Below are positions 23,082 to 54,247 of a DNA stretch of 64,000 nucleotides, in pieces. The notes beneath the pieces were generated by a model that ran no database searches, was not told where the DNA came from, and saw nothing but the letters and a program-made list of their open reading frames with translations. This DNA is from Jannaschia pagri (GTDB lineage Bacteria; Pseudomonadota; Alphaproteobacteria; Rhodobacterales; Rhodobacteraceae), in assembly GCF_019655435.1 (NCBI RefSeq), contig NZ_BPFH01000002.1, positions 310,001 to 374,000 of the forward strand, in the 5' to 3' direction. Position numbers and translations under genes: made by a program. Positions within the stretch are counted from its first letter, which is position 1, and each line of letters starts with the position of its first letter.

Positions 23082-23216
23082 TTTTTGCCTCCCGTCCTTG
23101 GTCTTTGGTTTGGCCGAACTGAGACAAACGAGCAAGTGCGCGCGTTCGATATTGCGCGGTTCTGATGGAATCCCCCGGATCTCGCCTGCTGCGCTTTGGT
23201 GGGGCTATGGGGCTGG

Positions 23217-23238
23217 GAGTATTTTTGCCGAGAAGAAG
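23217..23238 (+). repeat. Short dispersed intergenic repeat within repeat copy 1
   Basis: GAGTATTTTTGCC then GAGAAGAAG, near the left end of the long repeat. It belongs to the same family as 2359-2380 and 4126-4147. Confidence 0.6.
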
Positions 23239-23409
23239 CTGGGGGCCGGGTGGTTGTGGCTCGGGGTGGGGCGCGGGTTTCGTGTCGGATTTTAGGGGAA
23301 TTGTCGCGGTTTGGTGAGCTGCCGTCGCGCGCCCGTGAGGGCCGTGCGGTTGGGGGAGAGGTATGTGCGTGGGCGCACGCTTATCGCGTCATCCTCACGC
23401 GTCCGTTTG

Positions 23410-23438
23410 TTGAATGTCAGACCACGCTCCCGCATATC
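23410..23438 (+). promoter_or_regulatory. Predicted promoter of the copy 1 secreted protein
   Basis: TTGAAT, 17 bp, CATATC. The same two boxes with the same spacing occur in copy 2 (53636-53664) and, as TTGAGT-17-CATATC, upstream of the small secreted gene at 39623. A start near 23445 would give a leader of about 85 bases. Confidence 0.55.
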
Positions 23439-23529
23439 AATCCCATCAGCAGGGCAACAGCCCAGCACACCGCAACCCACTCCGGCCCGCCGCAACGCTA
23501 ACTGGGCCGCTCACATAAGGACTAACACT

Positions 23530-23862
23530 ATGAAAACGCTCATCCTCTCCGCCATCGTCGCCGCCGCTTCCATCGCCGGAGCCGCCTCCGCCCAAGTGCC
23601 CGCAGGCGCCGCCGGGGCCATCGCTCACTTCAACCAGGACATCGACCGCGCCAACGACCGCTCGAAGCTGCCCAGCGGCGATGCGACCGTCACCGTCTCG
23701 ACCCGCTCGGGGTCCTTGGGTGAGGCCTTCGCGATCTTCAACGCGACCGAGGACAACGCCAACGACCGGCGCGGGCTGAACGGCGCGACCGTCGTCGGCC
23801 AGAACGCCATCGCGACGGACATCTTCGCCCGCTTCGCCGAGGAGAGCCGCGACGACGACTGA
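23530..23862 (+). CDS. Small secreted protein of unknown function, duplicate 1
   Basis: A 110-residue protein with a clear Sec signal (MKTLILSAIVAAASIAGAASA, cut before QVPAG). The mature part is acidic and has two related segments: HFNQDIDRANDRSKL and IFNATEDNANDRRGL, each followed by ATV. It has no Cys and ends RDDD. ATAAGGACT precedes the ATG. It differs from the copy at 53756 by two residues only (Q/K and A/T in VVGQNAIATD). I do not recognise the family. The gene stands alone with its own promoter and terminator. Confidence 0.8.
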   Translation: MKTLILSAIVAAASIAGAASAQVPAGAAGAIAHFNQDIDRANDRSKLPSGDATVTVSTRSGSLGEAFAIFNATEDNANDRRGLNGATVVGQNAIATDIFARFAEESRDDD

Positions 23863-23968
23863 TTTTTCGCTAACTGCTCCGGCCGGGTATCCCCCCGCCT
23901 GGTCGGAGTGATGCCGCGCCACCCTCCCCGGTCTCTCCCCCCTCTCTCCGAGGTGCGTTGCGGCACGG

Positions 23969-24013
23969 GCACCCCCCGCCTTCGAGCCAGAGCGCTCGGG
24001 CGGGGGGTGTTTT
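23969..24013 (+). terminator. Rho-independent terminator, repeat copy 1
   Basis: A 12-bp stem (GCACCCCCCGCC against GGCGGGGGGTGT, one G:U pair) is followed by TTTT. The copy 2 equivalent is at 54195-54240. Confidence 0.85.
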
Positions 24014-24037
24014 GGTGGGGGGGGGGTAGAAAGGTTG

Positions 24038-39194: not shown

Positions 39195-39622
39195 GGCACA
39201 GGGCTCTGGCCTGTACCAAGGGCGACACGCTCAGGTGGCGTCTAAGCAGGCTCCCGAAGTTGCGCATTCGTCACCGCTATCTCTGCGCCTGCGCGCAAAT
39301 ATAAACCGTCGCGCCTCGCGCGTCCGTGAAGGCGGTGCGGCGGGGTCGGTCGATTGTGCAATGGCGCACGAAAATCGACACGCACTCACAACCAAGTGCA
39401 TTGAGTGTGACGACGGAAAGGCGCATATCCCTCTCAACGCCAAGCAGCCCGGCCTGCTTAGCCCCCCGGCATCCCCCCGCCATAAGGCGCGTCATCCGGG
39501 CCCGATCTGACGATTTGCGCCTCCCTCGGGAAGCGTCCACCCCCTACCGGCGCCGCTGTGGCGTCGGCACCACCGGTGTTTTCGAACACCATAGACGGCA
39601 ACCGAAGCTGAAAGGATATGCC
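39195..39622. other. Upstream region of a small secreted gene, about 430 bp
   Basis: No gene is supported here. From about 39307 it resembles the leader of the duplicated locus: GTGC and GCGCACG spaced as there, then the shared promoter boxes and GCATATC. A GGTGTT-TTCG-AACACC hairpin lies at 39575-39590, 32 bp before the start codon. Confidence 0.5.
39401..39429 (+). promoter_or_regulatory. Predicted promoter shared with the duplicated locus
   Basis: TTGAGT, 17 bp, CATATC: the same boxes and the same spacing as at 23410 and 53636. The leader to the ATG at 39623 would be about 187 bases. Confidence 0.5.
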
Positions 39623-39832
39623 ATGACTGCCATGTTGAAATCCGCGCTGCTGGTCGCCGCTCTCTCCGCACCCCTGGTTGGCGGGATCGCCCCCGCCGCC
39701 TTCGGAGCCGAGTCTGCGGCCACTGGCACTGCACAGACCCTGCTGACAACCAAGGGCGACCGGGGCAAACCCGTCCACTCGCCCCGCGCTCAGGCCATCC
39801 TGGCGAGTATCGCCGCCGAGAGCGACAACTGA
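39623..39832 (+). CDS. Small secreted protein, 69 residues, unknown function
   Basis: A 69-residue protein with a Sec signal (MLKSALLVAALSAPLVGGIAPAAFG, cut before AESAA). The mature part is about 38 residues and ends AQAILASIAAESDN, weakly like the end of the duplicated proteins (DIFARFAEESRDDD). AAAGGA lies before the ATG. A hairpin with TTCG loop in the leader and a terminator-like hairpin downstream bracket it. It may be a divergent third member of that small-protein family. Confidence 0.65.
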   Translation: MTAMLKSALLVAALSAPLVGGIAPAAFGAESAATGTAQTLLTTKGDRGKPVHSPRAQAILASIAAESDN

Positions 39833-53343: not shown

Positions 53344-53433
53344 GACCAATCTCCCGATATTGGGTTTGGACCTGGGGTCGCTTGCGGGCACCCGGATCTC
53401 GCCTGCTGCGCTTTGGTGGGGCTATGGGGCTGG

Positions 53434-53455
53434 GAGTATTTTTGCCGAGAAGAAG
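53434..53455 (+). repeat. Short dispersed intergenic repeat within repeat copy 2
   Basis: GAGTATTTTTGCC then GAGAAGAAG, as in copy 1. Confidence 0.6.
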
Positions 53456-53635
53456 CTGGGGCGGGTGGCTGTTGCTCGGGGTGGGGGGCGGCTGGGGTGC
53501 GGGTTTCGTGTCGGATTTTAGGGGAATTGTCGCGGTTTGGTGAGCTGCCGTCGCGCGCCCGTGAGGGCCGTGCGGTTGGGGGAGAGATATGCGCGCAGAT
53601 GCACGCTTATCGCGTCGTTCTCACGCGTCCGTTTG

Positions 53636-53664
53636 TTGAATGCCAGGCCGCCCTCCCGCATATC
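53636..53664 (+). promoter_or_regulatory. Predicted promoter of the copy 2 secreted protein
   Basis: TTGAAT, 17 bp, CATATC. The spacer has changed from copy 1 while both boxes are unchanged, which supports their importance. Confidence 0.55.
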
Positions 53665-53755
53665 AATCCCATCAGCAGGGCAACAGCCCAGCACACCGCA
53701 ACCCACGCAGGCCCGCCGCAACGCTAACTGGGCCACTCACATAAGGACTAACACT

Positions 53756-54088
53756 ATGAAAACGCTCATCCTCTCCGCCATCGTCGCCGCCGCTTCCATC
53801 GCCGGAGCCGCCTCCGCCCAAGTGCCCGCGGGCGCCGCCGGGGCCATCGCTCACTTCAACCAGGACATCGACCGCGCCAACGACCGCTCGAAGCTGCCCA
53901 GCGGCGACGCGACCGTCACCGTCTCGACCCGGTCCGGCTCGCTTGGTGAGGCCTTCGCGATCTTCAACGCGACCGAGGACAACGCCAACGACCGGCGCGG
54001 CCTGAACGGCGCGACGGTGGTCGGCAAGAACACCATCGCCACGGACATCTTTGCCCGCTTCGCCGAGGAGAGCCGCGACGACGACTGA
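53756..54088 (+). CDS. Small secreted protein of unknown function, duplicate 2
   Basis: A 110-residue protein with the same signal peptide as the gene at 23530 and differing from it at two mature residues (VVGKNTIATD here). Many of the DNA differences in the coding part are silent, so the protein appears to be under selection in both copies. ATAAGGACT precedes the ATG. The terminator is at 54195-54240. Confidence 0.8.
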   Translation: MKTLILSAIVAAASIAGAASAQVPAGAAGAIAHFNQDIDRANDRSKLPSGDATVTVSTRSGSLGEAFAIFNATEDNANDRRGLNGATVVGKNTIATDIFARFAEESRDDD

Positions 54089-54194
54089 TCCTTGAACGAC
54101 TGCTCCGGCCGGGTATCCCCCCGCCTGGTCGGAGTGATGCCGCGCCACCCTCCCCGGTCTCTCCCCCCTCTCTCCGAGGTGCGTTGCGGCACGA

Positions 54195-54240
54195 GCACCC
54201 CCCGCCTTCGAGCCTGAGCGCTCGGGCGGGGGGTGCTTTT
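54195..54240 (+). terminator. Rho-independent terminator, repeat copy 2
   Basis: A perfect 12-bp stem (GCACCCCCCGCC with GGCGGGGGGTGC) followed by TTTT. Confidence 0.88.
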
Positions 54241-54247
54241 GTGGGGG

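Follow-up and report, generated by a model that had tools for sequence, protein, structure and literature searches.

Dispersed multi-copy units that are homogenised by gene conversion are familiar from the rRNA operons, and antigenic variation through silent cassettes (as with pilS and opa) relies on conversion between scattered gene copies that encode exposed proteins. For dispersed protein-coding genes of prokaryotes, concerted evolution over long times is described as rare; the long-lasting cases include tuf, psbA/psbD, amoCAB/hao, fla and others (Wang and Chen 2018, PMC6053082; drawn on here in part). None of the 26 concerted genes tabulated in that paper is listed as a small exported protein, and amoD and amoE are given there as hypothetical.

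Here we analyse a 0.85-kb unit in a window of 64,000 nt (contig C2, positions 310001-374000, of G000, the own genome, which belongs to the Jannaschia group). Its features are, overall, probably best explained by a multi-copy family of exported proteins in concerted evolution behind one conserved promoter. A sequence-only reading had pointed out that 23174-24026 recurs at 53391-54247, and that each copy holds a promoter, a 110-residue exported protein and a terminator. Both copies were indeed found there, each with a signal peptide (recognised by eye), a plausible promoter, an SD and a terminator hairpin, and they are 93% identical over the whole unit. The two-copy duplication proposed at that time is too low a count, as the own genome has six copies, and the promoter-bearing segment at 39320-39832 had been missed. 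The features are as follows, in window coordinates, with R1 denoting our model of the promoter block:

23174..24026, + strand: unit copy 1 (site I), flanked by glpK and a GDSL esterase gene
23329..23440, + strand: promoter block of copy 1 (R1 match of 82.2 bits; this copy is in the training set)
23364..23378, + strand: palindrome TGTGCR-N4-YGCAC within the copy 1 promoter block, proposed regulator site
23410..23438, + strand: proposed -35 (TTGAAT), 17-nt spacer and -10 (CATATC), deduced from conservation
23446..23529, + strand: proposed 5' UTR with two predicted hairpins before the SD (moderate support; RNAalifold negative)
23530..23862, + strand: 110-aa protein with export signal, copy 1 (P0001)
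23863..24015, + strand: 3' UTR of copy 1 with three predicted hairpins (z -3.32, on 23861-24015)
23970-23980 and 23999-24009 (arms), then TTTT, + strand: likely terminator, the last 3' UTR hairpin of copy 1
39320..39431, + strand: seventh own-genome promoter block (64.0 bits, E 2e-17; in the training set)
39623..39832, + strand: 69-aa protein with export signal, downstream of the seventh promoter block, ending in SPRAQAILASIAAESDN
53391..54247, + strand: unit copy 2, at site II, after purD
53555..53666, + strand: promoter block of copy 2 (73.1 bits; absent from the training set)
53756..54088, + strand: 110-aa protein with export signal, copy 2 (P0002), differing from copy 1 at two residues, as read earlier
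23489-23498 with 23955-23964, and 53715-53724 with 54181-54190: 10-nt complement pairs
C1:633795, C5:312577, C1:64897 and C1:985296: the other four G000 copies

Pfam bears out the neighbours named beforehand, with an FGGY kinase that fits glpK and the GARS domains of purD, and identifies the GDSL esterase. The mature protein of copy 1 has a mass of ~9.3 kDa, a pI of 4.5 and no Cys. Its family, which had not been recognised from the sequence, stayed nameless in our profile and sequence searches: there was no convincing Pfam, NCBIfam, PHROG or PDB match, only scattered weak ones, and no title or abstract on this protein family among the literature searched. Structure prediction from six sequences reached a pLDDT of 37.6 and was unusable. 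Near the left end of copy 1, the repeat GGGAGTATTTTTGCCGAGAAGAAG (23215-23238) occurs at 18 places in the genome at ≤2 mismatches, 12 of them outside units; as a candidate mobile end it was rejected, being mostly outside units and the left end being different in G003. A 10-nt exact complement between the 5' UTR hairpin GCCGCAACGC and the 3' UTR GCGTTGCGGC is present in four of the six G000 copies, and an 8-nt part of it in three copies each of G003 and G019. Long-range pairing between the UTRs was rejected as a general feature, as the complement is missing in the other genomes tested.

The proposed count of copies in the own genome and its relatives was carried out, and yielded six own copies (search with the DNA of 23174-24026) at sites that recur in other species. 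All six encode a 110-aa protein with an N-terminal signal peptide (by eye), the proteins being 96.4-99.1% and the coding sequences 94.0-97.6% identical; copy C1:985296 is cut at the stop codon and C1:64897 ~50 nt past it. An assembly artefact, named beforehand as a possible refutation, is unlikely: each copy has flanks of its own, 6-7% of positions are changed relative to copy 1, and matching sites exist in other species. Nor is the frame lost in relatives, the other refutation foreseen: frame and signal peptide (by eye) are conserved in 30 aligned proteins of 14 genomes. A protein search of 60 genomes was positive in 15 of the 20 same-genus genomes (own included), with 1-8 matches each, some cut by contig ends, and found no relative of the 110-aa protein in any of the 40 others. 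Among 392 other-genus genomes of the family, profile A1 matched seven and the second-round profile A4 matched 33, many of these weakly and confined to the signal peptide region; with 11-12 candidates scored per genome, misses by either profile are no proof of absence. Several promoter matches lie close to contig ends, at distances of tens to a few hundred bases (G009 C19, C27, C29 and C31; G005 C7, C11 and C13), the four in G009 ending 43 bases from them. These are probably collapsed repeats, that is, more units than were assembled, and copy numbers are probably undercounted because assemblies break at the units.

Sequence conservation is higher in the ~110-bp promoter block than in the protein. 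The leader elements of this block keep nearly constant distances: CGTGAGG..GGTGCGG, the palindrome TGTGCR-N4-YGCAC, and TCACG-N4-CGT just before TTGAA, 17 nt and a CATATC-like hexamer. A sigma-70 consensus scan called no promoter, and its sole terminator-like call, at about chance level, fell inside the promoter block. Because a variable-gap promoter pattern had zero matches in the own genome, a profile was used instead (R1, sequence-only; its training set of 24 includes five sequences of other genera and one from window position 39318). At E 0.01, R1 found seven places in the own genome, three of which were in its training set: the six units and 39320-39431. Matches were present in 17 of the 20 same-genus genomes. 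No small export-signal ORF lies downstream of a weak match in G004 (E 0.005), and no export-signal gene was recognised after a strong one in G012. Shorter proteins of 71 aa (G002, G005) and 69 aa (G016, G019) behind R1 matches were matched by A4. A 68-aa protein of G003, for which A4 gave a weak E of 0.001 (E for 20 sequences), resembles the 69-aa protein of the window, which itself had no A4 match (E 0.76 whole, 0.12 mature); by eye its C-terminal motif is similar to that of the 110-aa family, to which it is otherwise linked by the promoter alone.

Outside the genus, R1 at E 0.001 matched 18 of 294 family genomes, with 32 matches in total. Of these, 27 came from 16 genomes without a training sequence; 23 were opened, one of which, in G299, had no downstream room. 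A small export-signal ORF began 54-114 nt downstream at 20 of the 22 held-out loci (13 of 15 genomes), which include near-identical pairs, as compared with 9% (231 of 2640) of random positions within these loci, in a test written after the ORFs had been seen. The two loci without such an ORF were the weakest of the 22. Without the signal peptide, seven of 13 other-genus promoter-linked proteins, 12 of which come from held-out genomes and one from G155, were matched by A4 at E below 0.001. In the remaining ones the repeats are quite unlike these (the LGV-AG-YT type among them). Either the product has diverged past recognition, then, or exported proteins of several kinds stand behind this promoter. 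Since A4 fails on the 69-aa protein and six of the 13 others, common descent of all products is not established. The block nonetheless led to exported proteins that searches with the window proteins had missed. We consider it probable, a step down from the very high confidence that we held before the A4 results, that the same promoter block precedes the Jannaschia units and small exported proteins of other Rhodobacteraceae genera.

The 110-aa gene shows an extreme codon bias, with 22 of its 23 two-fold codons ending in C (41-74% in seven window genes) and a GC3 of 0.92 (0.68-0.80 in the same seven), which suggests that the protein is highly expressed. It had also been read as selected, and dN/dS among the six G000 copies is 0.118, closely followed by the G003 copies (0.117); among three G019 copies it is 0.43, and the G002 pair has zero amino-acid changes. 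Between G000 and G003, dS is 0.60-0.68, dN ~0.40 and w ~0.6, as against a dS of 0.65-1.57 and a w of 0.05-0.23 for 24 neighbouring ORF pairs (≥65% identity, a filter that excludes fast-evolving neighbours; some pairs are possibly antisense). A McDonald-Kreitman-type table holds 68.5 nonsynonymous and 21.5 synonymous fixed differences, as against 23.8 and 53.2 among copies (p 1e-8; built on non-independent within-genome copies in place of a population, and with synonymous sites partly saturated). The odds ratio for the mature part was 8.4, and the signal peptide part alone was not significant (p 0.58). By these comparisons, the protein is changing fast between these two species and is strongly constrained within them, a direction that is clear despite the saturation, the filter and the non-independence.

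A plain dosage effect is a serious possibility here, though one to which we would give less than even chances: a bulk periplasmic or envelope protein, whose copies are equalised by conversion and whose change between species reflects relaxed constraint. It would fit the codon bias, a copy number of up to 8 with more copies collapsed at contig ends, and the strong 3' hairpins and shared promoter. Relaxed constraint would not be expected to give 0.12 within genomes (G000, G003) and ~0.6 between species, but the 0.43 in G019 softens this objection. Less likely, and in our view doubtful, is an antagonism or recognition factor (bacteriocin-like, a kin marker or a phage-surface decoy) that changes in concert in all copies. 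The fast and adaptive-looking divergence of the mature part, the export signal and the presence of the same promoter before proteins of unlike make-up all agree with it, whereas the two window proteins submitted to PADLOC had no match at E values up to 0.1.

Five of the six G000 sites have the same neighbours around a unit in other species, and four are shared tightly on both sides. At site I (glpK / GDSL esterase), both flanks are common to G000, G001, G002, G010 and G014. In G018, too, a unit separates these two genes; G006 and G005 have one beside the esterase (the G005 match extends to the contig end), and G019 has a shortened in-frame version with a full promoter between glpK and the esterase. 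At site II (purD), G010 and G016 match on both sides within 7 kb, purD not being the nearest gene there. Site III (ruvB) is common to G000, G003 and G005, and sites IV and V are common to G000 and G003; these two genomes thus share both flanks at three sites (III, IV and V), where the best neighbours have 71-91% protein identity. Two syntenic sites each were found in G002 and G010, and the synteny in G019 is weaker. Site VI (purQ/ADH) is occupied in G000 only among the genomes tested: no unit match lies beside the ADH gene in any of seven relatives, and the ADH-purQ gap, read in four relatives, is without a unit (~95 bp in G003). This site seems to have been gained in the G000 lineage; where it is empty, the sequence has diverged too far for a target-site duplication to be read. 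In G003, G007, G008 and G012, site I is without a unit, with a glpK-esterase gap of 110-280 bp. Together with the apparently new site VI, this indicates that units are gained and lost.

Some irregularities around the shared sites were also seen. In G003, the two flanks of site II (window 53391-54247) adjoin two different copies (C1:279k and 968k), possibly a trace of recombination or rearrangement through the units. In G000, ~4 kb that are absent in G003 separate the site V copy from the next shared gene (L046, 9952-13990). The absent 3' part of the unit at site V was rejected as proof of shared history, since it is not site-specific: this part is also absent in a second G003 copy (2779k) and mostly absent in a second G000 copy.

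Recent amplification within each species, by transposition or copy-paste, would make the copies alike simply through their youth. Their near-identity, the site private to G000 among seven relatives tested and the existence of unit-free sites could all be read in this way. Sites I, III, IV and V, however, are shared on both flanks between species, and at III and IV the blastn alignments are continuous from the downstream neighbour through the gene. Furthermore, neither window copy has inverted repeats of at least 10 nt at its ends, the unit ends are not conserved between G000 and G003, and searches of plasmids, phages and viral contigs found no relatives. We therefore regard a mobile cassette as very unlikely. 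The earlier suggestion that the unit moves or is copied as a cassette holds up as far as some spread is concerned, as seen at the purQ/ADH site that is empty in G003; as a general description it does not fit the five shared sites and the lack of end repeats and mobile relatives.

Still less probable is a unit that works as a structured RNA with an incidental frame. It could draw on the strong 3' hairpins (z -3.32) and the predicted 5' UTR hairpins, but dN/dS is 0.12, the frame and signal peptide are kept in the 30 proteins of 14 genomes, and Rfam has no match in the window. For the 5' UTR, RNAalifold found no shared pairs, and the named two-hairpin structure had 75.7% of cells paired, compared with 72.8% in shuffles and 24-48% for slid versions.

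In the protein tree, copies cluster by genome and not by site, with support of 100/99 for G000 (six copies), 100/99 for G003 (eight), 98/92 for G019 (four of five) and 96/87 for G010 (two of three); the two G002 copies are identical in protein. Mean identity of the coding sequences is 96.0% within G000 and 94.7% within G003, whereas between these genomes it is 66.2% for syntenic copies (three pairs) and 66.8% for all pairs. The leaders behave alike (94.6% within G000, 95.6% within G003, 74.8% for syntenic and 73.3% for all G000-G003 pairs). Inside the unit, the orthology signal between syntenic G000 and G003 copies is thus erased. Four-gamete conflicts affect 297 of 630 site pairs in G000 and 278 of 595 in G003, the two genomes examined for conversion tracts, and the patterns of informative sites change in tracts. 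Given shared sites with erased orthology and mosaic variants, the sequences indicate that in-place gene conversion is the main process keeping the dispersed copies alike, with some spread to new sites. Purifying selection alone, keeping the protein alike without conversion, would account for the low dN/dS of 0.118 among copies but is hardly credible, as synonymous sites are homogenised too (dS 0.12 among G000 copies, 0.65-1.57 for neighbours between G000 and G003), the leaders are 94.6% alike and the variant patterns are mosaic.

Homogenised copies were found in five of the 12 multi-copy genomes compared (G000, G002, G003, G010 and G019); in G005, G006, G008, G014, G015, G016 and G018, the copies compared, which are only some of those present, had 37-67% protein identity and are not homogenised. 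Near-identical units also occur in other genera: three in G155 (97.7-99.5%), two in G357 (93.7%) and four at contig ends in G262 (100% over 467 bp). A tandem array of at least four copies, most with a period of ~418 bp, was seen in G275 (L154, G275:C1:1095001-1100500); its protein has 108 aa and a weak profile match.

Returning to concerted evolution behind one promoter, we hold it very probable, from the comparisons above, that there are six copies, that five stand at old sites, that they undergo conversion, and that purifying selection within species goes with fast divergence of the mature part between them. The unit would be a stand-alone transcription unit composed of the promoter block, a structured 5' UTR, a 110-aa Sec-exported acidic protein with degenerate repeats and a terminator. 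Gene conversion between the dispersed copies, most likely of the RecA type, equalises them, homogenising promoter, leader and gene in each of five genomes. One regulator would turn on all copies together, and codon bias and copy number would lead to high output; such joint switching and high output are rather likely. Most likely, the arrangement serves to express an exported, acidic protein without cysteines at a high level and in a coordinated way. The rapid divergence suggests a partner outside the cell. Tentatively, the mature protein may have an extracytoplasmic role, directed against a partner or exerted together with it. This partner would vary from species to species (phage, competitor, host surface or self-association), and every copy may receive useful changes through conversion. 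More speculative still, and on balance unlikely, is an undescribed Rhodobacteraceae system in which the promoter block defines hypervariable small exported repeat proteins, and, in some genomes, conversion-homogenised sets of several copies adapt together to an external partner. If true, this promoter-defined system would serve recognition, antagonism or phage evasion. In either case, the block offers a handle on one putative regulator and on unnamed exported proteins in several genera.

How, then, does the unit relate to known systems? With mobile cassettes and non-autonomous transposons it shares unrelated neighbours and near-identical copies; it differs from them in that end repeats were not found, sites are kept across species and the unit ends differ between G000 and G003. 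Unlike the rRNA operons, it is protein-coding, not universal and fast-changing in sequence. In contrast to silent cassettes, conversion here makes the copies alike, and each of the six has its own promoter. The closest likeness is to the genes in the parts of Wang and Chen (PMC6053082) drawn on here, whose within-genome copies also cluster in the tree despite syntenic sites across species. Of the hallmarks used there, paralogs group together in five species, the minimum asked for (G000, G002, G003, G010 and G019), the grouped paralogs lie at syntenic sites (more weakly so in G019), and synonymous sites are homogenised with conversion tracts, the latter from G000 and G003. What sets the present case apart from those genes is the combination of 6-8 dispersed copies, a small exported protein and fast change between species, and such a fast-evolving 6-8-copy family could serve to test whether conversion speeds adaptation by spreading good changes.
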